The notes under the pieces are model-generated. The model made no database searches and was not told the DNA's origin. It saw only the letters and a list, made by a program, of their open reading frames with translations. From Saprospiraceae bacterium (GTDB taxonomy: Bacteria; Bacteroidota; Bacteroidia; Chitinophagales; Saprospiraceae), in the NCBI GenBank assembly GCA_030728245.1, contig JANQZX010000097.1, positions 13,803 through 77,802 on the forward strand: 64,000 nucleotides of DNA. The letters run 5' to 3'. This document shows positions 7,860 through 22,465 of this stretch, piece after piece. Every line of letters begins with the position of its first letter. Within the stretch, counting starts at the first letter, position 1. The position numbers and the translations under genes are program-made.

Positions 7860-10800
7860 ATGAAAAAACACTTACTAGTGCTTTCACTAACTTTCTTTGG
7901 TGCGATTAGTGTATTTGCACAAAGAACGATTAGTGGTAAAGTAACCGATGCAGGTGGTGAGCCGCTCATCGGTGCCAGCGTGGTGGTTAAAGGAACCAGC
8001 TCTGGAACCGTAACGGATATCGATGGAGGATACAGCTTGTCTGTACCTTCTGATTCAAAAGTTTTGGTGTATTCTTACACTGGATATGAATCAAAAGATG
8101 TCGAATTGGGTGCGTCAAACACCATTGACGTTGTGCTTGCCGAAGGCGCGGAGCAACTTTCAGAAGTTGTGGTCACAGCACAGGGTCTTACTCGTGAAAA
8201 AAAGGCGTTGGGTTACGCCGTTTCGGGAGTTGACCAAAAAGATATTCAGGACAGACCGTTAGCGGACGTAGGTAGAGTGCTTCAGGGTAAGATTCCTGGT
8301 GTTTCTGTAACGTCAACTTCAGGTGTTTCTGGAACGGGTACAAATATCGTTATTAGAGGATATTCTTCTATTACCGGTTCTAATCAGCCATTATTCGTAG
8401 TGGATGGGGTGCCCTTTAACTCAAATACGAACCAAAGAGGTGGCTTTACACAAGGTGGACAGTCTTCTTCAAGTCGTTTCTTAGATCTTGATCCGAACAG
8501 TATCGAAAGTGTAACTGTACTGAAGGGTCTTGCCGCTACCGTTACTTACGGTGATCAGGGTCGTAACGGAGTAATTCTTGTAACTACCAAAAGTGGTTCA
8601 AAAAAAGCGAGAAAAGCCGAGTTTCAAGTAACTCAGTCAGTATTTACCAATACGGCTCACCTTCCAAGATACCAAAATGATTATGTAGGTGGTTTCCAGC
8701 AAAATCTAGGTTATTTCTTTAGTAACTGGGGTCCAACTATCGAGGAGGCTTTAATTTATCGTTCTCAAAATACAAATGCAGGTTTAACAAATCACCCTTA
8801 CGCATTTTTATCTAATCCAGCATTGAGAGCGGGGCAGGCTGATTATGTTGCCTCTGTAAGCCCTTATAAAATAGCTGTTTATCCAAATAACGTAAATGAT
8901 TTCTTCCGTCAGGGTAATGTTTTTAACACTAGCGTGAATGCTTCCGGTGGCGGTGATAATGTAAGTTATAATATTTCTGCTGGCTATTTAGATGAGCAAG
9001 GTTATATTCCTAACAACGGTTTAAAAAAATTAAATTTAGGATTAGGTTTGAATGCTAAATTATCGAACAAATTATCAGTAACTACCTCATTTAGCTATTC
9101 TAATACAGAACAGTATTCTCCTCCTTTAAGTGGTGGAGGTGGAAATAATGCCTATGATTTCCCTTCTGTTTTGGCCAACGTTATGTACACACCTCGCCAA
9201 GTTGATTTAATGGGTTGGCCTTATGAGGATCCAACGACTAAAAATTCAGTTTATTTCAGAAGTGGAAATGATATTCCCAATCCTCGTTGGATATTGGAGA
9301 ATTATAAAACGACAGGCGTTGTAAACAGAATTTTTTCTGCTACAAGTTTTAATTACCAGCTATCAAAAGATTTGACTTTACTATATAAAGTTGGATTAGA
9401 TACTTATAGTGAATCTCAGGAATTCAAATTTAACAAAGGAGGTGTTTCATTTGTAAATGGGTATTACAATACTTGGGATATCCAAAATACTATTTGGGAT
9501 AATACTGTAATTCTAGGTTATAGTAAGGTTCTTACCAAGAAGTTAAACCTGAATGCTCGTTTAGGTGGAAATATGCGTAATGATACTTACAGAAACGTGT
9601 TCGTACAAAGTCAAAATCAGTTGGCAAGAGATTTATTCCGCCACTCTAATTTCATTGATAACGTAGCTTCTGACGGTATTCAGGAAGAAACCAGAATGGG
9701 TATTTTCGGGGAAGTAACTGTAGATTACAATAACTATTTATTCTTGAATTTGGCAGGAAGAAATGACTGGACCTCAACCGTTGAAAAAGAGAATCGCCGT
9801 ATTCTTTATCCTTCTGCGAGTTTATCGTTCGTTCCAACTTCTGCTTTCCCTGGTTTATCCAGTGATTTCTTGAATTTCTTGAAAATCAGAGCGGGTGTAG
9901 GTACTTCTGCCGGTTTCCCAAGGCCTTATCAAACAAGAAATATTCTTGATCAAAGTGCTCGTGCTTGGTTATTGCCTTCTGGTGCTGCGGTTCAAAGTCA
10001 TGCAGTTAATAATTCATTGGGAAATCCAAATTTACGTCCTGAATTACACACAGAATATGAGTTTGGTATAGAAACTAAATTGTTAAAAGGTTTACTTGGC
10101 CTTGATCTTACGGTGTATCGTCGCGACACTCGTGATTTGATTACGAGTGCGCCGCTTGATTTTGCTACCGGTTATTCTGCAACTACCATAAATATTGGTA
10201 AAATCAGAAATGAAGGGGTGGAAATAGCTTTAACAGCTACGCCTATTTCAAGACCAAATTTTCAGTGGAATGTAACCTTAAATTATACAAGGAACACGCC
10301 AACAGTACTTGACCTTGGTGGTACATTACAGGAAGTACAGATAAGTGGTTTCGGTGGTGCTTTGGGTAACTACGCTATCGTTGGTAAACCTTTCAATATG
10401 ATCAAAGGCATCGGCTACCGCAGAAATGCAGAGGGAACGGTATTGGTTGATGGCGGCGGGTATTTAGTAAGTACGCCAAATGCTATCGAGTTGGGTGATC
10501 CAAATCCAGCTTTCCAAACCAGTTTAATCAATGGATTTAATTTCAAAGGATTCACCTTTGATTTCATGATTTCTTATCGTCACGGTGGTGCGCTTTACAG
10601 CAGTACAGCTGGTGCGTTGATGGGTAGAGGACTAACGCTTGATACAGGTAAAGAAGTGTATGACCGTGCACAAACTTTCATTTTCCCTGGTGTTTTACAA
10701 TCTGACGGTTCACCAAATAATAAACAGGTGACTGCATCTGATGTTGGTTTCAATAATCTTTATTTCTTCGGTGACGAAGGTCGTATGTATGACGGTACAA

Positions 10801-11048
10801 CCATCAGATTACAGGAAGTTTCCATAGGATACGCAATTCCTAAAAAATTAGTTGAAAAAACGCCATTCAAAGCTATTTCGTTAAGCGTCAGTGGTAATAA
10901 CTTGTGGTACAAAGCACTTTATTTACCCCCGGGACTCAATCTTGATACAGATAATCTTGGCTTAGGTGTTGGTAATGGTTTAGGTTTTGAACTACTTACA
11001 GGACCAAGTGCCCGTAGATTAGGTGGAACTTTAAAACTGACTTTCTAA
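7860..11048 (+). CDS. SusC/RagA-family TonB-dependent outer-membrane transporter (first copy)
   Basis: A 1062-residue SusC-type transporter. It has a signal peptide (about residues 1-20, ending VFAQ), a carboxypeptidase-D regulatory-like beta-sandwich at about 21-100 (ISGKVTDAGGEPLIGASV), a TonB-box/plug region from about 105 (EGAEQLSEVVVTAQG), a plug domain with QPLFVVDGVPF, and a 22-strand-type barrel ending in Phe (LKLTF). It works with the SusD lipoprotein downstream to import a ligand bound at the cell surface, energised by TonB. The plug end is unusual: LKGLAATVTYGDQGRNGVIL instead of the common LKGAAASALYGSRATNGVI seen in the second copy. Its N-terminus is nearly identical to that of the second SusC, pointing to duplication. 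The substrate cannot be deduced. Confidence 0.93.
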   Translation: MKKHLLVLSLTFFGAISVFAQRTISGKVTDAGGEPLIGASVVVKGTSSGTVTDIDGGYSLSVPSDSKVLVYSYTGYESKDVELGASNTIDVVLAEGAEQLSEVVVTAQGLTREKKALGYAVSGVDQKDIQDRPLADVGRVLQGKIPGVSVTSTSGVSGTGTNIVIRGYSSITGSNQPLFVVDGVPFNSNTNQRGGFTQGGQSSSSRFLDLDPNSIESVTVLKGLAATVTYGDQGRNGVILVTTKSGSKKARKAEFQVTQSVFTNTAHLPRYQNDYVGGFQQNLGYFFSNWGPTIEEALIYRSQNTNAGLTNHPYAFLSNPALRAGQADYVASVSPYKIAVYPNNVNDFFRQGNVFNTSVNASGGGDNVSYNISAGYLDEQGYIPNNGLKKLNLGLGLNAKLSNKLSVTTSFSYSNTEQYSPPLSGGGGNNAYDFPSVLANVMYTPRQVDLMGWPYEDPTTKNSVYFRSGNDIPNPRWILENYKTTGVVNRIFSATSFNYQLSKDLTLLYKVGLDTYSESQEFKFNKGGVSFVNGYYNTWDIQNTIWDNTVILGYSKVLTKKLNLNARLGGNMRNDTYRNVFVQSQNQLARDLFRHSNFIDNVASDGIQEETRMGIFGEVTVDYNNYLFLNLAGRNDWTSTVEKENRRILYPSASLSFVPTSAFPGLSSDFLNFLKIRAGVGTSAGFPRPYQTRNILDQSARAWLLPSGAAVQSHAVNNSLGNPNLRPELHTEYEFGIETKLLKGLLGLDLTVYRRDTRDLITSAPLDFATGYSATTINIGKIRNEGVEIALTATPISRPNFQWNVTLNYTRNTPTVLDLGGTLQEVQISGFGGALGNYAIVGKPFNMIKGIGYRRNAEGTVLVDGGGYLVSTPNAIELGDPNPAFQTSLINGFNFKGFTFDFMISYRHGGALYSSTAGALMGRGLTLDTGKEVYDRAQTFIFPGVLQSDGSPNNKQVTASDVGFNNLYFFGDEGRMYDGTTIRLQEVSIGYAIPKKLVEKTPFKAISLSVSGNNLWYKALYLPPGLNLDTDNLGLGVGNGLGFELLTGPSARRLGGTLKLTF

Positions 11049-11049
11049 T

Positions 11050-11072
11050 TGGCAGTTTTGCCACATTTTTTT
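11050..11072 (+). terminator. weak hairpin with T-run between susC and susD (first pair)
   Basis: A 5-bp stem TGGCA/TGCCA (11050-11054 and 11059-11063) with a 4-nt loop, followed by CATTTTTTT. It is too weak for efficient termination but could lower susD relative to susC or mark an mRNA processing end. Confidence 0.35.
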
Positions 11073-11095
11073 CGTCTTAATAAAAAAACAAAGAA

Positions 11096-12748
11096 ATGAT
11101 ACATAAAATCAAAATGTTGTTTTTGATGTTGGCGGTTACCGTGGTTAGTTCCTGCGAATTAGATTTGCTGGACAATCCCAATGCGGTAACAGTTAATAAT
11201 GCTGATATCAACTATCTCCTCAATTCAGTAACTACTGGATACGCGGGTAATTTTAATGCTTTTAGTGATCCTGGTATGCGTTTAACCAGAATGTTAAATC
11301 AAGGATCTGTTATTTATGATAATGCCGTTTCTCCAGGTAGTTCTGACGGTCGTTGGAGTAGCTCTTATGCCGGAATTTTAGCCGATGTATCAGCTACCAT
11401 TCCGATTGCTGAAAAAGGTGAATTATTTGTTCATGCTGGAATTTCAAGGGTAATTCGTGCCATGGTCCTTATGAATTTAGTAGATTACTTCGGTGACGTT
11501 CCTTTCAAAGAAGCCATCGACCCTGCTAATTTTAATCCTGGTATAGATAAAGCTGCCGATGTTTATGCTGCCGCTTTAGCTGATTTAAATAAGGCTATTG
11601 AAAATTTTAACGCTAAATCTAAATCTGGTGCTTCAAGTGATTTATACTATGGTGGTAATACAGATAGCTGGATTCGTGCTGCGAACTCATTGAAATTGAA
11701 GTATTATATGAATAGGCGTTTAATTGATGCAGCGGGTTCGACTTCTGCTATTAATGCATTGATAGCAGAAAATAAATTGATCTCTACCAATGCCCAGAAT
11801 TTAACCTTTAAATACGGTACCAATTTGGTAAACCCAGACACTCGTCATCCTCGTTATGCAGGTCAATATAGCCCAACGGGTGGAGGTGATTACCAGTCTA
11901 ATTCTTACATGGCGCAGTTATTCGATGGAGGACGTGGCTTTCAGGATCCAAGGATCCGCTACTATTTCTACCGTCAAACTACAGCAAACACCAAAGACGT
12001 GAACGAGCTTCGTTGTATTACTTTAGTTAAGCCAAATCATTATGGTGCTAAAGATGTATTTTGTGTAGCAACACCAAGCGCGGGTTACTGGGGTCGTGAT
12101 CATTTGAACAATGAAGGTATTCCACCAGACGGGCTGAAACGTACAGCCTGGGGTATTTATCCGGCAGGTGGATTATATGATAACGACGGCAATAGGGGTG
12201 TTTCTTTAGGTGCTGGTGCTGGTGGTGCTGGTATTCACCCAATCATGATGCGCTCTTTTGTTGACTTTATGTTGGCTGAATCGGCCCTTACCTTGAAAAC
12301 AACAGGTGATGCAAGAGCATTGTTGAAATCCGCTTTAGAGAAATCCTTTGCCGATGTCCGTTCTCTTGCTTTAGGTACTTCAGAGGCATCGAAAATTGCT
12401 GCTTTTGAAGCGGATAAAGGAATTAAATGGGCTGAAGATGTAACCAAATATGTTGATTATGTTCTAGCTCAGTATGATGCTGCTCCTTCTGCAGATGCAA
12501 AATTAGACATTGTAGCTACAGAATATTGGGTGGCATTACATGGTAATGGTATAGAATCTTATAATCTATATCGTCGTACAGGTAAGCCTTCTGGTCAACA
12601 GCCAGCGCTGGATCCAAATCCAGGTCCCTTCGCAAGATCACTTTACTACCCGTTATCTTATGTTACGCGTAATAAAAATGCAAAGCAAAAGGCTAATGCT
12701 GCTGTTCAGGTATTCTGGGATAATAATCCTGCTAACTTTATTAAATAA
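11096..12748 (+). CDS. SusD/RagB-family surface lipoprotein (first copy)
   Basis: A 550-residue SusD-like substrate-binding lipoprotein. The signal peptide ends in the lipobox VVSSC, with Cys20 as the lipidation site. The body has the tetratricopeptide-like helical repeats of the family (FVHAGISRVIRAMVLMNLVDYFGDVPF), GGNTDSWIRAANSLKLKYYMNRR, and the C-terminal YNLYRRTGKPSG block. The pattern resembles the SusD/RagB nutrient-binding subgroup (SusD-like 2) more than classical starch SusD. It lies 47 nt after its susC partner and would cap the barrel as a lid at the cell surface. The acidic residue after the Cys (CELDL) may matter for surface export in this phylum. Confidence 0.92.
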   Translation: MIHKIKMLFLMLAVTVVSSCELDLLDNPNAVTVNNADINYLLNSVTTGYAGNFNAFSDPGMRLTRMLNQGSVIYDNAVSPGSSDGRWSSSYAGILADVSATIPIAEKGELFVHAGISRVIRAMVLMNLVDYFGDVPFKEAIDPANFNPGIDKAADVYAAALADLNKAIENFNAKSKSGASSDLYYGGNTDSWIRAANSLKLKYYMNRRLIDAAGSTSAINALIAENKLISTNAQNLTFKYGTNLVNPDTRHPRYAGQYSPTGGGDYQSNSYMAQLFDGGRGFQDPRIRYYFYRQTTANTKDVNELRCITLVKPNHYGAKDVFCVATPSAGYWGRDHLNNEGIPPDGLKRTAWGIYPAGGLYDNDGNRGVSLGAGAGGAGIHPIMMRSFVDFMLAESALTLKTTGDARALLKSALEKSFADVRSLALGTSEASKIAAFEADKGIKWAEDVTKYVDYVLAQYDAAPSADAKLDIVATEYWVALHGNGIESYNLYRRTGKPSGQQPALDPNPGPFARSLYYPLSYVTRNKNAKQKANAAVQVFWDNNPANFIK

Positions 12749-12777
12749 TCCTTTCACGGATAAAAAAATTGATAAAT

Positions 12778-13344
12778 ATGAAAAATTTATTAAAAATCGG
12801 GATGTTGCTTTCTGCCTTCTTCTTGGTTTCCTGTGAAACGGAAATGGTTGAGCGTCTTGATGAGTTTAGTTTTGATCAAGGTGGTTATATGAGAACGGTA
12901 ACTCCTTTCCCAATTCCCATTTTTTCAGTAAGCAAGGCAAATATGTCTGGTACTAAAATGGAAATGGTTCTTGAAGCAGTAACACCAAATTTAGGAGCTA
13001 ATTTTGATACGTATGAAATGGTTATCAGATTTTTAGATAATACCCCTGCAAATGGTTCCAATGCTAAGACTGACGTGGCTTTAAAAACGCTTTCTGCCAG
13101 CAATTTTACTAAAGATGCTACTACTGGGTATCCTCGTACTACTTTATCTGTAACTGGTAAAGAAATGCAGGATGCTTTGAAGCTTACCGCAGATCAAATT
13201 GCTACCGGTGACCGTTTTGAAATTCGCGCTAAAATGAAATTAAAGGATGGAAAGGTATTTGACGCGTCAAATTCTTCTGGGGACATCCGCGGTGGAGCAT
13301 TCTATTCTTCTCCATTTTTATACAGAGCAAATGTTGTAAACTAA
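12778..13344 (+). CDS. uncharacterised lipoprotein, third gene of first SusCD cassette
   Basis: A 188-residue predicted lipoprotein. The ATG at 12778 is preferred over an upstream TTG because it gives a clean signal peptide with lipobox FLVSC (Cys19). The mature part is about 170 residues, beta-rich in appearance, without cysteines or recognisable catalytic motif. It begins 29 nt after the susD stop and is followed by two terminators, so it is the last gene of the first cassette. By position it may be an accessory surface ligand-binding protein (SusE/F-like in role), but that is inference from context and no family is recognised. Confidence 0.75.
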   Translation: MKNLLKIGMLLSAFFLVSCETEMVERLDEFSFDQGGYMRTVTPFPIPIFSVSKANMSGTKMEMVLEAVTPNLGANFDTYEMVIRFLDNTPANGSNAKTDVALKTLSASNFTKDATTGYPRTTLSVTGKEMQDALKLTADQIATGDRFEIRAKMKLKDGKVFDASNSSGDIRGGAFYSSPFLYRANVVN

Positions 13345-13409: not shown

Positions 13410-13530
13410 ATATCATTTTGTATTTATTTTTTTGATTTAATAAAAATTTTACTTATTTATTGCGTCCTTTATTAACAATAAATTAATTTTACACTAACTA
13501 TTGTTTATTATTAACAAAAAATGGATTAGT

Positions 13531-16500
13531 ATGAAAAAACACTTACTAGCACTTTCGTTGGTTTTCTTTGCAGCTATAGGAGCTTTTGCGCAAAGAACAA
13601 TCACCGGTAAAGTGACTGATTCAGGTGGAGAACCACTTATCGGTGCCAGTATCCTTGCGAAAGGATTAAGCACGGGTACAGTTACGGATCTCGACGGTAC
13701 TTACAGCTTAGCTGTGCCAGCAAATGCCACAATATTGGTATTTTCTTACACAGGGTATGAGACAAAAGAGGTGACCTTGAGCGCTTCAAATGTTGTGGAT
13801 GCTACTTTGGAAGAAGGAGCAGAACAACTTTCGGAAGTTTTGGTTACTGCTATTGGCATTGAAAGGGACAAAAAAGCAATGGGTTATGCCGTTACTAATT
13901 TAAGTTCCAGCGATGTCCTCCAAAGATCTGAGGCTGACCCGCTAAGGGCAGTAGCAGGTAAAATTCCTGGCGTTACTATTACCGGGTCAGGTGGTGGACC
14001 AGGTACTTCAACTAAAATTAACATCAGAGGTTTTTCTTCCCTTACAGGAAATACTCAGCCTTTGTTTGTTGTAGATGGGGTTCCTTTTGATAACTCGGTA
14101 AACGCAACAACGGGTGCTCAATCTGGTGCGCAGTTCTCGAATCGTGGTTTCGATATCGATCCTAATAATATTGAGTCTATGACCGTATTAAAAGGTGCAG
14201 CTGCGTCGGCTCTTTATGGCTCAAGAGCAACTAACGGTGTTATCGTTATTACTACTAAGTCTGGAAGTAAAGGTTCAAGAAAGGGATTAGAGGTTACTTA
14301 CAACTCTTCTTTCCAATCTGAACAGATTTCAGGTATTCCCGATTATCAGGATGTTTATGGTCAAGGTTCAAACCAGGTATATAACGGTGGTTTCATCGGT
14401 AACTGGGGTTCTCCTTTTGCAGAACATGTAGATCGCTTAAATTCCGCTTACGGAACTAGCTATTCTAAAGTTATCGTTCCTGGTTACCCAGAAGGTACTG
14501 TTCCGCATCCATTGGTTTCTGGTGGTTTTGCCGGTTCTCGTTTTCCTAATGTATTCCCTGAGTTAATGAAGGACGGAAAAGCGATGGCAGTTCCTTATCG
14601 CCCTTATGATATTATCGGACCTTTCTTCCGCGATGGTGGCTTATTTGAAAATTCTATCAATATTAATGGTGGAAATGAAAAGTCAGCTCTAAATGCTGTA
14701 GTAAGTAGAATGAATAATGAGGGTATCGTACCTAATAGCCATTCCGGCCGTACTTCTGTAAGTGTGGGTGGTAATGCTAAATTAGATAACGGCCTTTCTG
14801 TATCTGGAAACGTTACTTACGTAAACTCTGAACAGAAAACGCCTCCATCAGGTGGTTCAGTTTTCGGTGGTAACTTCGGTACCGCGGACGCTTCAATTTT
14901 TACGCGTTTATTCTATCTGCCAAGAAATTTTGACTTGAACGAAACGAATCCAGAAGGTATTCCTTACCCTTTTGAAAATCCAGTTACCGGCTCAAACGTT
15001 TTCTATCGTGCATTGGATAACCCTCGTTGGTTAACTAAGTATGATTATTTTAAATCAAACGTAAATCGTGTGTATGGTAATATTGCCTTAAACTATGACG
15101 TAACTCCCTGGTTGGCTTTAAGTGCCAGAGGTGGTATGAATACATATTCTGATTTTCAGAAAAACGTAAAAGTAGCTGGTGGTGTTGCTGATGCAAATGG
15201 TGAGGTTTGGACAAATGACGTTACGAATACCGAGATAGATTTAAACTATTTAGCTACCGTTACAACTAAATTCGGTGAAAACATCGATTTCAGATTAATT
15301 GCTGGTTTTAACTGGAATCAACGTTCTTATGGCACTCGCTATGTTGTGGGTGATGGTATTATTTCTAGAGGTTTATACAATACTGATGCTACAGTTACTC
15401 AGTTAAGTTCTGAATTTAATCGCTTACAGCGTTTTTATGCCGCTTACTCTGATATGCAACTTGGATACAAAAACTATTTGTATCTAGGTATTACCGCGCG
15501 TAATGACTTCTCTTCAACATTACCTGCAGCCAATAGAAGTTACTTCTATCCTGGGGTGAATGCCTCTTTCGTCCTAACAGATGCTTTTGATATTTCAAAT
15601 AACTTCTTAGGTTATGCTAAAATTAGAGGTGCCTGGACACAAGTAGGTAATGAAGCAACTCCTTACAGAACAGCCACGCCTTATTTCCTTTCAACACCAT
15701 TCACAACCGCTGGTGGTTCTAAATTCAATTTAGCTTCCTTAGGTAACACCTTAGGAAATGGTAATTTATTGTCAGAGTTAACGACTGAGATTGAGTTTGG
15801 TGCTGATGTAAGATTATTGAAAAATAAAGTTGCCTTAGAATTCACCTGGTTCAAAAGAAATTCTACAAACCAGATCACCTCTACGCAGGTACCAGCCTCT
15901 TCAGGCTTTACCCGTGCCGTAGTTAATGCAGGTGAAATTCAAAATAAAGGTTTTGAGGTTGCGTTGAACTTCTCACCTATCAAAACGAAGAACTTTACCT
16001 GGGATGCAACCGTTAACTTTACCCGTATTCGCTCTTTAGTAGTTGATGCTGGTGAAGGAGGTGATATCTATGTAGGTGGTTTATTCTCAAGTCTTGGTGT
16101 TATTCATAGAACAGGTTTACCTTATGGTCAAATATTTGGTTCTGCGAATGCTAGAACGCCTGAAGGTGATTTATTAATTGATAAATCATTGGGTTTGACC
16201 ATTCTGGAGCCAACCTCTGAAATTATTGGTGATCCAAATCCTGACTTTACGACAAGTTTAATCAATACTTTCTCGTTCAAAGGATTTTCATTAAATGCGA
16301 TGCTTGACTGGCGTCAGGGTGGTGACATGTATTTAACTACCGCAAGTTCTCTTTTACTAAGAGGCCAGATTAAAGTTACGGAAGACAGAGAAGCACTCAG
16401 AGTGATTCCCGGCGTTTATGGTAATACCCAGACGTTTGAACCTGTATTAGATGAAAAAGGAAATTATATCAGAAATACAACAGCCATCACTGCTTTTGAT

Positions 16501-16815
16501 TATTTCTTCTCTAACGGCTTTGGCGCTTACGGCGCAGATGAAACGAATATTTTTGATATTACTTCTATTCGTTTAAGAGAAATTTCTTTGGCTTATCAGT
16601 TCCCAAAACAGTTATTGTCAAAGACACCTTTCGGTTCAGCAAGATTATCACTTTCTGGTCGTAACCTTTGGTGGAGAGCTCCAAATATTCTTGAAGGGGT
16701 GAATAGTGATCCCGAGGTTTTGGCTGAATCTGCTTCTTCAAATGTTCAAGGTTTCGAATACGGTTCTTATCCAACAACGAGACGTTTTGGTGTGAACCTT
16801 TCCATAACCTTCTGA
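13531..16815 (+). CDS. SusC/RagA-family TonB-dependent outer-membrane transporter (second copy)
   Basis: A 1094-residue SusC-type transporter. The ATG at 13531 is chosen over a TTG ten codons upstream because it gives the same signal peptide as the first copy (MKKHLLALSL... ending AFAQ). Next come the carboxypeptidase-like N-terminal domain (ITGKVTDSGGEPLIGASI), the region EGAEQLSEVLVTA, a plug with QPLFVVDGVPF and the standard LKGAAASALYGSRATNGVIV motif, and a long beta-barrel ending in Phe (LSITF). It should import a ligand together with the SusD that follows. It is clearly paralogous to the first SusC at the N-terminus, while the barrels have diverged, which suggests different ligands. It is separated from the first cassette by two terminators. 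Confidence 0.94.
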   Translation: MKKHLLALSLVFFAAIGAFAQRTITGKVTDSGGEPLIGASILAKGLSTGTVTDLDGTYSLAVPANATILVFSYTGYETKEVTLSASNVVDATLEEGAEQLSEVLVTAIGIERDKKAMGYAVTNLSSSDVLQRSEADPLRAVAGKIPGVTITGSGGGPGTSTKINIRGFSSLTGNTQPLFVVDGVPFDNSVNATTGAQSGAQFSNRGFDIDPNNIESMTVLKGAAASALYGSRATNGVIVITTKSGSKGSRKGLEVTYNSSFQSEQISGIPDYQDVYGQGSNQVYNGGFIGNWGSPFAEHVDRLNSAYGTSYSKVIVPGYPEGTVPHPLVSGGFAGSRFPNVFPELMKDGKAMAVPYRPYDIIGPFFRDGGLFENSININGGNEKSALNAVVSRMNNEGIVPNSHSGRTSVSVGGNAKLDNGLSVSGNVTYVNSEQKTPPSGGSVFGGNFGTADASIFTRLFYLPRNFDLNETNPEGIPYPFENPVTGSNVFYRALDNPRWLTKYDYFKSNVNRVYGNIALNYDVTPWLALSARGGMNTYSDFQKNVKVAGGVADANGEVWTNDVTNTEIDLNYLATVTTKFGENIDFRLIAGFNWNQRSYGTRYVVGDGIISRGLYNTDATVTQLSSEFNRLQRFYAAYSDMQLGYKNYLYLGITARNDFSSTLPAANRSYFYPGVNASFVLTDAFDISNNFLGYAKIRGAWTQVGNEATPYRTATPYFLSTPFTTAGGSKFNLASLGNTLGNGNLLSELTTEIEFGADVRLLKNKVALEFTWFKRNSTNQITSTQVPASSGFTRAVVNAGEIQNKGFEVALNFSPIKTKNFTWDATVNFTRIRSLVVDAGEGGDIYVGGLFSSLGVIHRTGLPYGQIFGSANARTPEGDLLIDKSLGLTILEPTSEIIGDPNPDFTTSLINTFSFKGFSLNAMLDWRQGGDMYLTTASSLLLRGQIKVTEDREALRVIPGVYGNTQTFEPVLDEKGNYIRNTTAITAFDYFFSNGFGAYGADETNIFDITSIRLREISLAYQFPKQLLSKTPFGSARLSLSGRNLWWRAPNILEGVNSDPEVLAESASSNVQGFEYGSYPTTRRFGVNLSITF

Positions 16816-16874
16816 CGAATTATTGACATTTTTGTTCATCCTGGTTATTACAGTCCAGGGAAAAAAATTTACAA

Positions 16875-18581
16875 ATGAATAAATTAAAAAATACCGTCAG
16901 ATTTTTCGCCGCCACCCTTATGATTTTTGTTCTAAGTGGTTGTGGTGATATGTTTGACTTAGACATTAACCAAGATCCTAATAATCCTACGCAAGCAAGT
17001 TCGGATCTTCTACTTGCCCAGGCTCAATACAGTATGGTAAGCCTTATTGGTGGGGGTGTTAATAACGATCTCATGGGCTTCATGGGAATTATAGGTAGTT
17101 ATGATAACTGGAATATTGGCCAGACTGCCTACAACGGAACCTGGCGCTCACTTTATGCTGATGTGCTAAAGGACCTTGAAGGAATCATCAAATCAAATAC
17201 TGGTGATACAGGTTCACCTCAATATTTAGGTATTGCACAGCTGTTAAAGGCTTATGTAGTTTCTACTATGGTCGATCTTTTTGGCGATATTCCTTACACT
17301 GAAGCACTTAACGGTGACAGTGAAACGCCTATCGTCAATCCAAATTTTGAAGACGATGCCGCTATTTATGCTAAAATGCTCTTACTTGTTGACGAGGGTA
17401 TTAAAGGAGTAACCAATGCCCGTCGTCCGGTGGCCATTACAGGTGACCTTATCTACGCTGGAAATACAGCACGTTGGGAAAAATTTGGTCTTTCTCTAAA
17501 ATTGAAGATGTTAATGAATACGAGATTGGTGAACACTAACGCCAAATCTCAAATTGAAGCAGTAATCGCTTCTGGGAAATTAATTTCTACCACTGCGGAA
17601 GATTTTACTTTCCAATATTCAAAGACGGTTACACCAGATAATCGCCACCCTTGGTATCGTGCTTCTTACACAGCTGGTACTAACGGCTTTACTTACATTC
17701 TGCATCAGTTTATGTTAGAATCTTTAGAAGATGCTGACCCACGCTGGCCATACTATTTCCGTCGTATTCAGGGAACCGTTCTTGATCAGGCGGATCCATC
17801 TCAACGTAATACTTCTCCTTGTTCTCAAACGCCTTCCTGTACTTATGGATATTTTCCAATCAGTAATTTGGTAATTAAGCGTTTATATGAGAATAAGAAT
17901 CTTAAGTATGATGATAAAGCAGCAGCTTTCTTAGCTGGCTTATTTGGACGTGACAGAGCTGACCCGGCAGGTATTCCACTAGATGGTGACTTCAGGCTTA
18001 TTCCGGGTGTTTATCCTGCTGGTGGTTATTATGATATAGCAACACCCGCTATTCCTGCAGCAAATCGTGCGTCAGGTGGAGGAATTTTCCCAGCTTTAAC
18101 TTCTGTAAACGTTCTTTATCATCAAATAGAAGCTATCCTTTCTCTGGGAGTAGCAGGTGATGCTAAGGCTTTATTCAAAAAAGCAATCGAAGATCATATT
18201 GGTAAAGTAGTAACATTTAGTAGATCATCTGATGTGAATGCGCCAGCTCCACCAATTACTATGGTCGATGGACGTGTATTGGATACAAAGGCTTATGTTG
18301 ATCTATGGATGAGTCGTTATGACAATGCAGCCAATAACAACGCTAAATTAAACGTGGTTGGAAAACAACTTTGGTTTACTAGCTGGGGTAATGGTTTCGA
18401 GTTATATAACTTCTTCCGTCGTACTGGTTTCCCAAATACTATCCAGGATCCAATCCTTGCTCCTCGTAAATTCCCTGTTCGTTTACCTTATCCACAAGAG
18501 GAACTAACATTGAATCCTAATGCGAAAACAGCAAAGGATGTTATTTATGACAGAGATAGAATTTTCTGGGATCCGAACTAA
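16875..18581 (+). CDS. SusD/RagB-family surface lipoprotein (second copy)
   Basis: A 568-residue SusD-like lipoprotein with lipobox VLSGC (Cys23) and the typical early DINQDPNNPTQAS segment. Helical-repeat blocks include YLGIAQLLKAYVVSTMVDLFGDIPYTEAL, YAGNTARWEKFGLSLKLKMLMN and, near the end, YNFFRRTGFPN. It belongs to the same SusD-like 2 subgroup as the first copy but is well diverged. Two Cys (about residues 316 and 321, SPCSQTPSCTYG) form a possible disulfide loop that the first SusD lacks. It forms a transporter pair with the SusC 59 nt upstream. Its ligand is unknown: no polysaccharide-degrading enzyme lies nearby. Confidence 0.92.
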   Translation: MNKLKNTVRFFAATLMIFVLSGCGDMFDLDINQDPNNPTQASSDLLLAQAQYSMVSLIGGGVNNDLMGFMGIIGSYDNWNIGQTAYNGTWRSLYADVLKDLEGIIKSNTGDTGSPQYLGIAQLLKAYVVSTMVDLFGDIPYTEALNGDSETPIVNPNFEDDAAIYAKMLLLVDEGIKGVTNARRPVAITGDLIYAGNTARWEKFGLSLKLKMLMNTRLVNTNAKSQIEAVIASGKLISTTAEDFTFQYSKTVTPDNRHPWYRASYTAGTNGFTYILHQFMLESLEDADPRWPYYFRRIQGTVLDQADPSQRNTSPCSQTPSCTYGYFPISNLVIKRLYENKNLKYDDKAAAFLAGLFGRDRADPAGIPLDGDFRLIPGVYPAGGYYDIATPAIPAANRASGGGIFPALTSVNVLYHQIEAILSLGVAGDAKALFKKAIEDHIGKVVTFSRSSDVNAPAPPITMVDGRVLDTKAYVDLWMSRYDNAANNNAKLNVVGKQLWFTSWGNGFELYNFFRRTGFPNTIQDPILAPRKFPVRLPYPQEELTLNPNAKTAKDVIYDRDRIFWDPN

Positions 18582-18617
18582 TTATTTTCATTGATTGTTT
18601 TAATAAAAAAACACAAC

Positions 18618-19610
18618 ATGAAGCGATATAAAATTTTGCTTTATTCTCTAGCCGCCGCACTCTTGTTGCCGTTTTCTTCCTGCAAGGACGAATCGCTAAA
18701 TCCGGTTCTTGCGCCAGAAACTGCCGTTCATGGTTTTGCGCAAACAGCCGCTGGCTCAGCTACGAGTTTCTTCTATAAAGATATGACCACACCAATTAGT
18801 ATTGAATTGCAATGGATATCTATAGATAAAATAAATACAGTTACTAAAATGGACATTTTTGTCAATTTTAGAGAGTCCTACGTCGATGCGGAAGGAAATC
18901 CTCGCGTAGCTAATCATGGTACTAAAAAAGTGAAAACTTTGGAAGGTAGTGCCGTTCCTGCCAATAGAGCGAATGCTAAATTTAGCATCTCTCCAAATGA
19001 TGTTTATACCGCATTCAAAGATGCTACCTTTGATTATGGTGATGGCAAAGGAAAGGTTTCTGTATTTAGTAATACCTTTAAGAAAGACAGAACGTCATCT
19101 GTTCGTTTTACATCCGATGACGCATTTAGGATGACTTGGGCGTTCACCACCGCTGATGGTCGTTATTTTGACTCTTGGTCCGATTCTGTTTGTTCAGAAT
19201 TTCCCGGGGCTAATTGCGATATCAACTGGGCTGTGGTTTGTGACTCAAAAATCGAAGGTACTTACATAGCTACTACTTCAGGTACATCTACCGATGACTG
19301 TTGTAAAGGTGTTTTTACAGAAACAAAAGAAGTAAAACTTACCAAAACTGGTGATGGCAAATATTCTATTTCCGATTGGAGCGCCGGCCTTTATTTAAAA
19401 TGGTACGGAGTTTATGGTATTTCAGCTACGACAAAAATGGAGGCTACTTTGTTTGATGTTTGTGGAACCATTAAGTTTCCTGATTTTACAGAACCTTTCG
19501 GTGAAAAAACCACTGCTTCTGGTAAAGTGAATGATGATGGCACAATAAGTTATGCATGGGTAAATGGTTATGGTGACAAAGCCACCGTGCTACTTACACC
19601 CAAAAAATAA
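18618..19610 (+). CDS. uncharacterised Cys-containing lipoprotein, third gene of second SusCD cassette
   Basis: A 330-residue predicted lipoprotein; the ATG at 18618 gives a signal peptide with lipobox PFSSC (Cys22), better than a TTG nine codons upstream. The C-terminal part, from about residue 205, has six cysteines (in VCSE, NCD, VCD, a CC pair and VCG) and a beta-rich pattern with Tyr/Gly/Trp turns (GKYSISDWSAGLY, DGTISYAWVNGYGD). From memory it resembles a domain often found at the C-terminus of SusCD-linked lipoproteins in Bacteroidota, but I cannot name the family. It is not similar to the third gene of the first cassette. Accessory ligand binding at the surface is the likely role. Confidence 0.75.
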   Translation: MKRYKILLYSLAAALLLPFSSCKDESLNPVLAPETAVHGFAQTAAGSATSFFYKDMTTPISIELQWISIDKINTVTKMDIFVNFRESYVDAEGNPRVANHGTKKVKTLEGSAVPANRANAKFSISPNDVYTAFKDATFDYGDGKGKVSVFSNTFKKDRTSSVRFTSDDAFRMTWAFTTADGRYFDSWSDSVCSEFPGANCDINWAVVCDSKIEGTYIATTSGTSTDDCCKGVFTETKEVKLTKTGDGKYSISDWSAGLYLKWYGVYGISATTKMEATLFDVCGTIKFPDFTEPFGEKTTASGKVNDDGTISYAWVNGYGDKATVLLTPKK

Positions 19611-19632: not shown

Positions 19633-19673
19633 AATTGCTCCCCGATACTTATTTTCGGGGAGCAATTTTTTTT
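19633..19673 (+). terminator. strong intrinsic terminator touching the next start codon
   Basis: A perfect 13-bp stem (19633-19645 with 19655-19667; core GCTCCCCGA) with a 9-nt loop and a T tract to 19673. It closes the second SusCD cassette 22 nt after its last stop. The T tract ends one base before the ATG (19674) of the redoxin gene, so that gene has no room for a separate leader after the terminator. Confidence 0.88.
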
Positions 19674-20240
19674 ATGAGGTATCTTATCCTTCTTTTTGTC
19701 TTCAGTGTTACATCAGCTACTCATTTATTTTCATTCAATGCAAATAAATCACTGCCCTTATCATTTGAAATGGATAGTTTAAAAGATTTAATATCAAGGG
19801 ACGTTATCCTAAGCACCAAAGGAAATGTTTTTATATGGATGAATTCGGAATGTCCGATTTGTAATAAGTATCCTAATATCTGGAAAAAATTAGCAATAGA
19901 ATTTCCCGAATTTACCTTTATTGGGGTATTCACTTCGTTTGAAGACAAAAAAATGGCAAAGGATTTTATAAAAAAATATAAAATCCCTTTCCAGTGGTTT
20001 ATAGATAAAAAGAATCATCTGGCAAATTATTTAAGCGTTAATGTTACTCCTGAGGTTTTGTTTTTTAATGCCGATGCTGAAATTGTTTACCGTGGTGCTA
20101 CAGATGATTGGTTTTATGCCTTGGGGAAAACAAAGACAGTATCACAGCATTTATATTTGAAGAATGCGTTAACGGCTCAATTGAATAATCAACCTATATT
20201 GATTTTTAAAACGGATCCTATCGGTTGTATTTTTAACTGA
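19674..20240 (+). CDS. exported thioredoxin-fold (redoxin) protein with CPIC motif
   Basis: A 188-residue secreted protein. A signal peptide covers about residues 1-20. The redoxin domain has the active-site-like SECPICNKY (Cys60 and Cys63), the TPEVLFFNADAEIVYRG strand-turn with the cis-Pro expected in thioredoxin folds, and a C-terminal PIGC motif. This pattern, with CPI near the start and PxxGC at the end, is known to me from redoxin domains that accompany or are fused to cytochrome c / PHM-like proteins in other phyla. It probably acts in the periplasm as a thiol-disulfide or peroxiredoxin-like partner of the monooxygenase encoded next. The ATG directly follows the T tract of a strong terminator. 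Confidence 0.8.
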   Translation: MRYLILLFVFSVTSATHLFSFNANKSLPLSFEMDSLKDLISRDVILSTKGNVFIWMNSECPICNKYPNIWKKLAIEFPEFTFIGVFTSFEDKKMAKDFIKKYKIPFQWFIDKKNHLANYLSVNVTPEVLFFNADAEIVYRGATDDWFYALGKTKTVSQHLYLKNALTAQLNNQPILIFKTDPIGCIFN

Positions 20241-20410
20241 TCCACTTCCTTTTTCTTTTAAAATGCCACAATACATTATTTCAAGGTTTCGTTGACTGTT
20301 TAAAATAAAAAAAATCAGAATAAATATTATTTAGTTAATTTTAAAAGAATAGTTCATTTTCCGTTAAATGGAAAAGTAACTTATAGCTTTTTGTAAATTA
20401 TTATTTCAAT

Positions 20411-21697
20411 ATGTCTGGGTCACTTCACTTAAATATTTTTTTGGTATTGGTATGTTTAATCGTTGGGAATGATGGGGTCTGCTCAGATTCGTTAACTTAT
20501 TTCATTGACATCAAGCCAATCATTGATGAACATTGCACCGGCTGCCATAGAAAAGGTCAAACGGCACCTTTTTCATTGGAAAGTTATGAAGATGTAAAAA
20601 AAAGAGCAAGCATGGTTGAAATGGTGGTTGAGTCTAAATATATGCCTCCCTGGCACGCCGATACATTATTCAGAACTTTCCATAATCAACGGGCCTTATC
20701 AGAAGAATCGTTAAATAAAATACTTACATGGATTAAAAGTGGGGCAGCGGAAGGTTTACCTCAAAAAAAGGGAGCGGTAAATAGTTTTAATTGGCCTTCT
20801 CCGGATAAAATTGTTGCTTTTCAAAAACCATTTATCATACCAGGAGATAACGAGGAACAATATAGATTTTTTGTTATTCCTGTGGATAATCCAACACCTA
20901 TATATTTACGGGGTGTAGGATTTGTACCCAAAAACAAGACGCTGGCACACCATAGCAGGATTATGATTGATACAACTAAAAGAATTCGACCTTTCGATGC
21001 TACTTCTGTTTGGCAAGCTGGGCCTCAACTGGAAAAAATGAATATTCCACTGGCCAATTCATTTTGGACAGGATGGGTTCCCGGTAATTTTCCTCTTTTT
21101 TACCCCGATGGTGTGGCAAAGGTACTTCCCGCTAATGCAGATTTAGTGGTTAATATGCATTATGCTCCTTCTGCAAAGGAAGAAACCGATCAATCAGAAA
21201 TTCATCTTTATTATGCCAAAGGAAAGCCAAGAAGAATTATTGAAACTTTAGTTTTTGATGAAACCTGGGTGACAAATAAGCCGTTTGAATTCCAACCTGA
21301 TACAGTTATTACCTTTTATATGAGGTCGCCTGTTTTACCAGTCGATTTATCATTATTAAGTGTTCTGCCCCACATGCATCTTCTTGGAAAATCATTTAAA
21401 TCGTTTGCCATTACGCCCGACGGTGATATGATACCGCTAATACATATTCCGGAATGGGATTTTAATTGGCAGCAAACCTACCAGTTCAATAATTTGCTCA
21501 AAATCCCTCGCGGTTCGGTTATTTATGCGGAGGCAACGTTTGATAACACTAAAAATAACCCTAAAAACCCCTATTTCCCACCAGCAAAAGTAAGGTATGG
21601 TTGGGGGACTAAAGATGAGATGATGAACCTGATTTTTGAATATCTTTTATATGAACCAGGTGATGAGTATCTGGATTTTTATGGCGCTGAAAATTAA
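20411..21697 (+). CDS. cytochrome c - copper type II (PHM-like) monooxygenase fusion
   Basis: A 428-residue exported protein. After a signal peptide (about 1-25) comes a short c-type cytochrome domain with one haem site CTGCH (Cys42, Cys45, His46) and a likely Met ligand in KYMPPWHA. From about residue 150 it resembles the two copper domains of peptidylglycine alpha-hydroxylating monooxygenase: a His-His pair in LAHHSRIM, NMHYAP, then LPHMHLLGKSF, which matches the HxH copper ligands, and a late Met in the KDEMMN segment. Such enzymes hydroxylate substrates with O2 and a one-electron donor; the fused haem domain could be that donor here. The substrate is unknown. It is followed 9 nt later by an exported protein of unknown function. 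Confidence 0.82.
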   Translation: MSGSLHLNIFLVLVCLIVGNDGVCSDSLTYFIDIKPIIDEHCTGCHRKGQTAPFSLESYEDVKKRASMVEMVVESKYMPPWHADTLFRTFHNQRALSEESLNKILTWIKSGAAEGLPQKKGAVNSFNWPSPDKIVAFQKPFIIPGDNEEQYRFFVIPVDNPTPIYLRGVGFVPKNKTLAHHSRIMIDTTKRIRPFDATSVWQAGPQLEKMNIPLANSFWTGWVPGNFPLFYPDGVAKVLPANADLVVNMHYAPSAKEETDQSEIHLYYAKGKPRRIIETLVFDETWVTNKPFEFQPDTVITFYMRSPVLPVDLSLLSVLPHMHLLGKSFKSFAITPDGDMIPLIHIPEWDFNWQQTYQFNNLLKIPRGSVIYAEATFDNTKNNPKNPYFPPAKVRYGWGTKDEMMNLIFEYLLYEPGDEYLDFYGAEN

Positions 21698-21706
21698 ATT
21701 TAAATC

Positions 21707-22465
21707 ATGAAAAAACTAATTTTTATTATTTGTTGCTTCATTCCTTTTATGATGTTTGCTCAAGAGGAGTTGTATCAAACAACGCGGGATGAATTTAATT
21801 ATGGTGAATTCAGACCTAATAATTCAGCACCCATTTATGGTATAGCAGAAAAACCAGGAAAATTAATGGGCAATATATATTTGGATTCGATTTTCAGAAG
21901 TTCAGCGGTGGTATTTTTCAAGGAAATAGTTAAGCGATATGATCCAAATGCATCTGATTCAATAGCAGGCTACAAACTACGAATTAATTTACTTGAAAAA
22001 TTAGTGGAGTTTAAAATGAATGGGGGTATTAAGGGAGTTGATAATAAGGCTATAAAAAAAATTCAAACGTTTGATCCGGCAGGCAATACTCTTAAAACAT
22101 ATATCAATGGCCAATCACTCGGTATTGATTCGGTAGGTGAAGATCACTTTTATGATTTGGTTTATGACGGTCTTTTTGTAAAGGTAGTATCTCTTTCAGT
22201 TCTTAAAAAAAAGGAACCTACGTATCACGTTGCTTTATCTATGGGAGATAAAAATGCTTATTACTACTTAAAAACAACCTATTTTGCCAAAATTGAGAAT
22301 GGAAAGTGGAGCGAAATACAGAATAATAAAAATACCTGGTTAGATTTAACTGGCTCGAGGGAAAAAGTAATGTCAAGCTATCTTCAACAAAATCAACTTA
22401 ATCTAAAATTAACATCAGATTTGAGACAATTCTTTCAATATTTTGATAAAATAATGGTCGAATAA
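21707..22465 (+). CDS. exported protein of unknown function
   Basis: A 252-residue protein with a clear signal peptide (about 1-18, ending MFAQ) and no further membrane segment. I recognise no family or catalytic motif. The composition is Lys- and Tyr-rich, with mixed helix and strand predicted by eye. It begins 9 nt after the copper monooxygenase stop, so it is almost certainly in the same transcript and may be a periplasmic or outer-membrane-associated partner. No lipobox, no T9SS C-terminal domain and only one short Cys pair inside the signal peptide. Confidence 0.75.
   Translation: MKKLIFIICCFIPFMMFAQEELYQTTRDEFNYGEFRPNNSAPIYGIAEKPGKLMGNIYLDSIFRSSAVVFFKEIVKRYDPNASDSIAGYKLRINLLEKLVEFKMNGGIKGVDNKAIKKIQTFDPAGNTLKTYINGQSLGIDSVGEDHFYDLVYDGLFVKVVSLSVLKKKEPTYHVALSMGDKNAYYYLKTTYFAKIENGKWSEIQNNKNTWLDLTGSREKVMSSYLQQNQLNLKLTSDLRQFFQYFDKIMVE

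Follow-up and report, generated by a model that had tools for sequence, protein, structure and literature searches.

Animals produce neuropeptides and noradrenaline with the help of two copper enzymes, peptidylglycine alpha-hydroxylating monooxygenase (PHM) and dopamine beta-hydroxylase (DBH), both of which are commonly regarded as eukaryotic. In animal PHM, ascorbate supplies one electron to each copper, and the CuH and CuM sites lie 11 A apart (PMC6123673); a 2020 metalloproteome review lists PHM and DBH under eukaryotes only (PMC7435645). Here we describe a PHM/DBH-type gene cassette in a Saprospiraceae bacterium, located in a stretch of 64,000 nucleotides that is referred to below as the window. 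As in other SusC/SusD uptake systems of Bacteroidota, the genes for a SusC-like transporter and a SusD-like_2 protein are adjacent in this locus; unlike the usual arrangement, they are followed by the lipoprotein gene c2 and a copper monooxygenase rather than by glycoside hydrolases.

The core of the locus consists of three genes, here named A, B, and C, which lie on the same strand with only 9 nt between B and C, and their coordinates (Table 1) agree with those in a first-pass annotation made from the DNA letters alone. The gene set reaches upstream into a SusC-SusD-lipoprotein unit (13501-19610). This uptake context was absent from the first-pass annotation, as were the non-conserved CXXC of A and the missing peptide-binding Arg of B.

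Table 1. Features of the cassette and its upstream unit in the window.
Feature	Position	Strand	Evidence or conservation
SusC-like TonB-dependent outer-membrane transporter	13501-16815	+	Pfam Plug E 1.3e-20, CarbopepD_reg_2
SusD-like surface lipoprotein	16875-18581	+	Pfam SusD-like_2, E 2.2e-49
c2, lipoprotein 3' of SusD, function unassigned	18618-19610	+	ten relatives aligned
Terminator-like hairpin and T tract, directly before ATG of A	19633-19673	+	13-bp stem, -26.3 kcal/mol, z -6
Gene A, exported redoxin, 188 aa	19674-20240	+	AhpC-TSA above cut-off
CPIC motif of A	19851-19862	+	Cys60 invariant, Cys63 variable
IGC with C-terminal Cys185 of A (PIGC)	20220-20228	+	Cys185 invariant
Gene B, exported cytochrome c-PHM protein, 428 aa	20411-21697	+	Pfam Cu2_monoox_C, model, DBH/PHM structural match
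Haem c attachment CTGCH (C42, C45, H46) of B	20534-20548	+	kept in 134-135/136
Distal haem ligand Met78 in YMPPW of B	20642-20644	+	kept in 135/136
CuH ligands H180, H181 of B	20948-20953	+	kept in 132/136, 133/136
CuH ligand H250 of B	21158-21160	+	kept in 134/136
CuM ligands H321, H323 (HMH) of B	21371-21379	+	kept in 132/136, 134/136
CuM ligand M404 in DEM motif of B	21620-21622	+	kept in 128/136
Gene C, exported protein, 252 aa, function unassigned	21707-22465	+	signal-peptide-like N-terminus

The first-pass annotation had read B as a fusion of a cytochrome c with PHM-like copper sites, and this identification is borne out by both profile and structural comparison. In the proposed HMM check, B scores 24.1 bits against Pfam Cu2_monoox_C (PF03712; cut-off 23), whereas the Cu2_monooxygen N domain (PF01082) gave no match at E <= 1, although the structural match covers this domain and a fused relative (L091) shows a weak match to it (E 0.014). 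When a profile built from 38 relatives of B was compared with the PDB, the top match by sequence was human DBH (E 4.8e-8), in an alignment that pairs the HH, HY, and HxH copper motifs. AlphaFold models B with a mean pLDDT of 88.6, and residues 131-415 of the model, comprising both copper domains, match human DBH best (PDB 4zel, Z 22.6), followed by rat PHM (PDB 1phm/1sdw, Z about 20-22) and, as the next structural family, PNGase F (Z about 8); structure prediction thus shows the PHM/DBH fold across both copper domains. The cytochrome c domain forms the N-terminal part of B and carries CTGCH and Met78, while the Pfam cytochrome c models Haem_bd and Cytochrome_CBB3 gave 17.3 and 16.3 bits, both below the cut-off of 27.

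Conservation was assessed in 136 relatives of B from Bacteroidota, Acidobacteriota, and Myxococcota. Because the haem ligands and all six copper ligands are near-invariant in this set, B has a complete, conserved active site and not a relic. Judged by sequence and model, B is a complete PHM/DBH-type two-copper monooxygenase behind a c-type cytochrome domain, and presumably a catalytically active one. With PHM it shares the two-domain fold and, by motif and invariance, the HH plus H and HxH plus Met copper ligands, at about 13% identity; it differs in its extra cytochrome c domain, and where DBH carries a DOMON domain, B carries the cytochrome c domain. The haem cysteines are the only two Cys in the mature region of B, which therefore lacks the disulfides of PHM, and the genome encodes cytochrome c assembly genes. 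A further difference concerns position 319, two residues before HxH, which we take to be the place of PHM Arg240, the residue that binds the substrate carboxylate. Among the 136 sequences, this position is occupied by Ala, Met, Leu (as in the window), Phe, Tyr, Trp, and others, and Arg is not among its ten commonest residues. Without the PHM-type peptide-binding Arg, and with a variable residue in its place, B is unlikely to have peptidylglycine as its substrate, and peptide amidation by B is disfavoured.

Gene A lies just above the Pfam AhpC-TSA cut-off (26.7 bits against 26) and gives weak matches to TlpA/StoA/ResA-type families. With these redoxins and those of the AhpC-TSA type it shares a thioredoxin-like fold, by sequence similarity, together with the position of the first Cys and a cis-Pro. 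The family to which A belongs departs from the TlpA/ResA/StoA type in that its CXXC is not conserved and an invariant C-terminal Cys185 is found instead. The CPIC and PIGC motifs noted in the first-pass annotation are both present in the window, but CPIC does not hold as a conserved pair: across 64 aligned A-type domains, Cys60 and Cys185 are invariant (64/64), whereas position 63 holds Cys in 30 domains, Ser in 26, and another residue in 8. CPIC as the catalytic CXXC of the family was accordingly rejected, and the working cysteine pair of A, as read from the alignment, is likely Cys60/Cys185. The residues before Cys60 also vary among relatives (NSEC, GHEC, SPEC, ATSC, EEDC).

The pairing of a redoxin with the PHM gene, likewise proposed from the window alone, proved to be deep in the neighbourhood survey of relatives; with this linkage, and with the PHM domain and the copper ligands present, none of the refuting outcomes named in the first-pass annotation was observed. 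Across 148 related genomes, a B gene is found no more than 2 kb from 43 of the 50 strong A matches, where a rough estimate would predict about 0.08, and B is also present in 46 of the 47 genomes with a strong A match. The placement of A varies, being upstream of B, downstream on the same strand, or, in Chitinophagaceae, convergent downstream. Overlapping A and B genes occur in Acidobacteriota (L173, L178), and fusions of A and B in one chain, mentioned for Acidobacteriota in the first-pass annotation, were found both there (L051/L161, L172) and in other Bacteroidota (L091, L092, L093, L128); in a Myxococcota relative (L048) the frame is long, yet no redoxin was detected within it. That A and B have been re-paired and fused repeatedly points to a functional couple. 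The reverse dependence is looser: among 107 B genes, 64 lack an adjacent strong A match, and a type IX secretion tail (Por_Secre_tail) is found on many of these, so that A is not required by all relatives of B, some of which must use another partner.

SusC homologues occupy the equivalent place in relatives of the window locus. In a tree of 100 B domains, with SusD scored within 7 kb, all loci with a nearby SusD are confined to a single clade (25 rows, support 96), where SusD accompanies B in 13/25 rows, compared with 0/37 among the remaining non-fused Bacteroidota rows (Fisher p about 6e-7 if relatedness is disregarded). Within the tree the linkage needs 4 changes, which indicates that it is not fixed in the clade, and it is missing in about half of it; as SusC/SusD genes are common in Bacteroidota, some of the adjacency arises by chance. 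The clade comprises two subclades. In that of the window, SusC-SusD-c2 adjoins A, B, or both, as seen in the window's genus, Chitinophagaceae, L122, and L124. Its sister (L125, L126, with variants in L123 and L085) combines a ROK regulator, SusC, SusD, A, B, an FG-GAP/ASPIC-UnbV protein, and a PAP2-family protein, and L125 is flanked by alpha-L-fucosidase (GH29), GH125, and GH20 genes; by a reading of the genes immediately beside the window locus, no glycan-active enzyme was recognised there. The c2 protein has no match in Pfam. Among 247 genomes drawn evenly from the class, strong c2 matches occur in three (G000, G192, G331), each directly beside B or about 4 kb away, and the remaining matches are weak. 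In G037, A comes next after SusC-SusD-c2, with B-C at a distance of 38 kb, and c2 therefore tracks A as well. The position of the cassette beside SusCD suggests that bacteria use PHM/DBH-type copper chemistry on something that is taken up.

The explanation that we consider best, and to which we would give about an even chance, is that B is a haem-fed exported copper hydroxylase with A as its dedicated dithiol redoxin, the two serving small-molecule uptake through SusCD and c2. Within it, the fold, the metal ligands, the pairing and fusion of A with B, and the linkage to SusCD and c2 can be regarded as established by sequence comparison and modelling. Catalysis, the direction of electron flow, the periplasmic location, and the substrate are what we infer. 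In the window's clade, SusC/SusD and c2 would capture and import a small molecule, which, because SusCD adjoins the cassette, is plausibly the substrate that B would hydroxylate or dealkylate in the periplasm. An electron source other than ascorbate is plausible for B: its haem domain would be the natural entry point, and would most likely replace ascorbate in feeding electrons to the copper sites. A would then act as a dedicated redox partner through Cys60 and the C-terminal Cys185, not through a CXXC, most likely supplying electrons to the haem or copper sites of B; alternatively, its two cysteines could keep these sites competent. In favour of this explanation we count the PHM/DBH fold with its ligands, the haem ligands, the adjacency of A and B and their fusions or overlaps in two phyla, as well as the presence of SusD beside one B clade, the strong occurrence of c2 only near B, and the cytochrome c assembly genes; against it stand the 64/107 B genes without an adjacent A, the patchiness of the SusCD linkage, and its chance component. 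Extending the same explanation to a whole bacterial class of PHM-type monooxygenase, for which a dithiol redoxin rather than ascorbate would supply electrons by way of the enzyme's own haem, and which would perform the first enzymatic step of TonB/SusCD nutrient uptake, is a tentative step that we hold to be somewhat doubtful.

The loose dependence of B on A could also be accommodated if A were a copper or haem assembly factor of Sco/TlpA-like type, whose Cys60 and Cys185 would bind Cu(I) and load CuH and CuM, or would keep the haem cysteines reduced. The many B genes without an adjacent A are expected if a general factor can substitute, and the two invariant cysteines and the thioredoxin-like fold, with its weak matches near TlpA/StoA/ResA-type families, would suit such a role; nevertheless, the family has neither a conserved CXXC nor, in the alignment, an invariant His, unlike Sco, and a stable one-chain fusion with B would be unusual for a catalytic assembly factor, so we judge this role rather unlikely. 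The same cysteines, distant from each other as in 2-Cys peroxiredoxins, together with the AhpC-TSA similarity, might instead mark A as a peroxiredoxin-like guard that removes the peroxide released when turnover of B is uncoupled, Cys60 being the peroxidatic and Cys185 the resolving cysteine, but the absence of the peroxiredoxin motif PxxxT/SxxC and the invariant Arg from the A alignment makes this very improbable. A different role can also be considered for the uptake genes, namely that what SusC/SusD/c2 import for B is copper, or a chelate of it, and not the substrate. Consistent with this are the tight association of c2 with B and the lack of recognised degradative enzymes beside the window locus; however, the sister subclade lies beside glycosidase genes and a ROK-type regulator, typical of carbon uptake, and we know of no SusD-like_2 protein that binds copper, which leaves copper supply an improbable function.

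As for novelty, bacterial PHM-type proteins are a known kind insofar as they are visible to Pfam. No report of bacterial cytochrome c-PHM proteins was found in the literature searched, with most subscription papers outside its scope, and the form of PHM that combines haem, redoxin, and SusCD appears to be undescribed in that literature. This bacterial branch keeps all copper ligands and carries what would be its own electron entry point. B allows a direct test of PHM-type copper reduction without ascorbate. The branch may also be informative about how the animal enzymes arose, and the cassette would tie copper C-H hydroxylation to TonB-dependent nutrient uptake.

The first-pass annotation treated A, B, and C as one set, and here the neighbourhoods give a narrower picture: C accompanies B in the window's own subclade only, directly following it in four lineages (the window's genus, G037, L039, and L040), and is 28-34% identical outside the window's genus. 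It has no match in Pfam or NCBIfam; profile searches place it as a branch of a broad exported Bacteroidota family, and none of the members scanned scores above the cut-off of any Pfam family. On this ground, the view that C belongs to the cassette everywhere was rejected, and C is an accessory exported protein of the window's subclade, peripheral to the cassette. Its model (pLDDT 83) has no match in the PDB at E <= 0.001, a result that does not by itself show a new fold.

The hairpin between c2 and A is kept in the window's genus and would fit high expression of SusCD-c2 with lower expression of A-B. Hairpins of unrelated sequence lie at a similar place in L118 and L126. Two tandem SusC/SusD pairs (7860-13344 and 13501-19610), each followed by a different lipoprotein, are present in the window, and in L118 a second SusD and lipoprotein likewise precede the SusCD unit.

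Further cytochrome c-PHM genes were observed elsewhere. The window's genome encodes a second PHM-like protein of 444 aa (L001:1513-2844; G000:C138, minus strand) whose haem motif, CALSGCH, has the CX4CH form and which also contains PHM-type ligand motifs; the short flanks examined around its gene showed no redoxin. One Acidobacteriota genome (G662) has about 18 cytochrome c-PHM matches, some in a tandem array (L166 and others), and among the Acidobacteriota genes (L166, other G662 loci, and L167-L171) TPR tails are found in some, and several are neighbours of CRTAC1-like genes. In L108:6428-9517 and L109:6791-9871, the cytochrome c-PHM region lies within frames of about 1030 aa, and further domains therefore seem to be attached to it.
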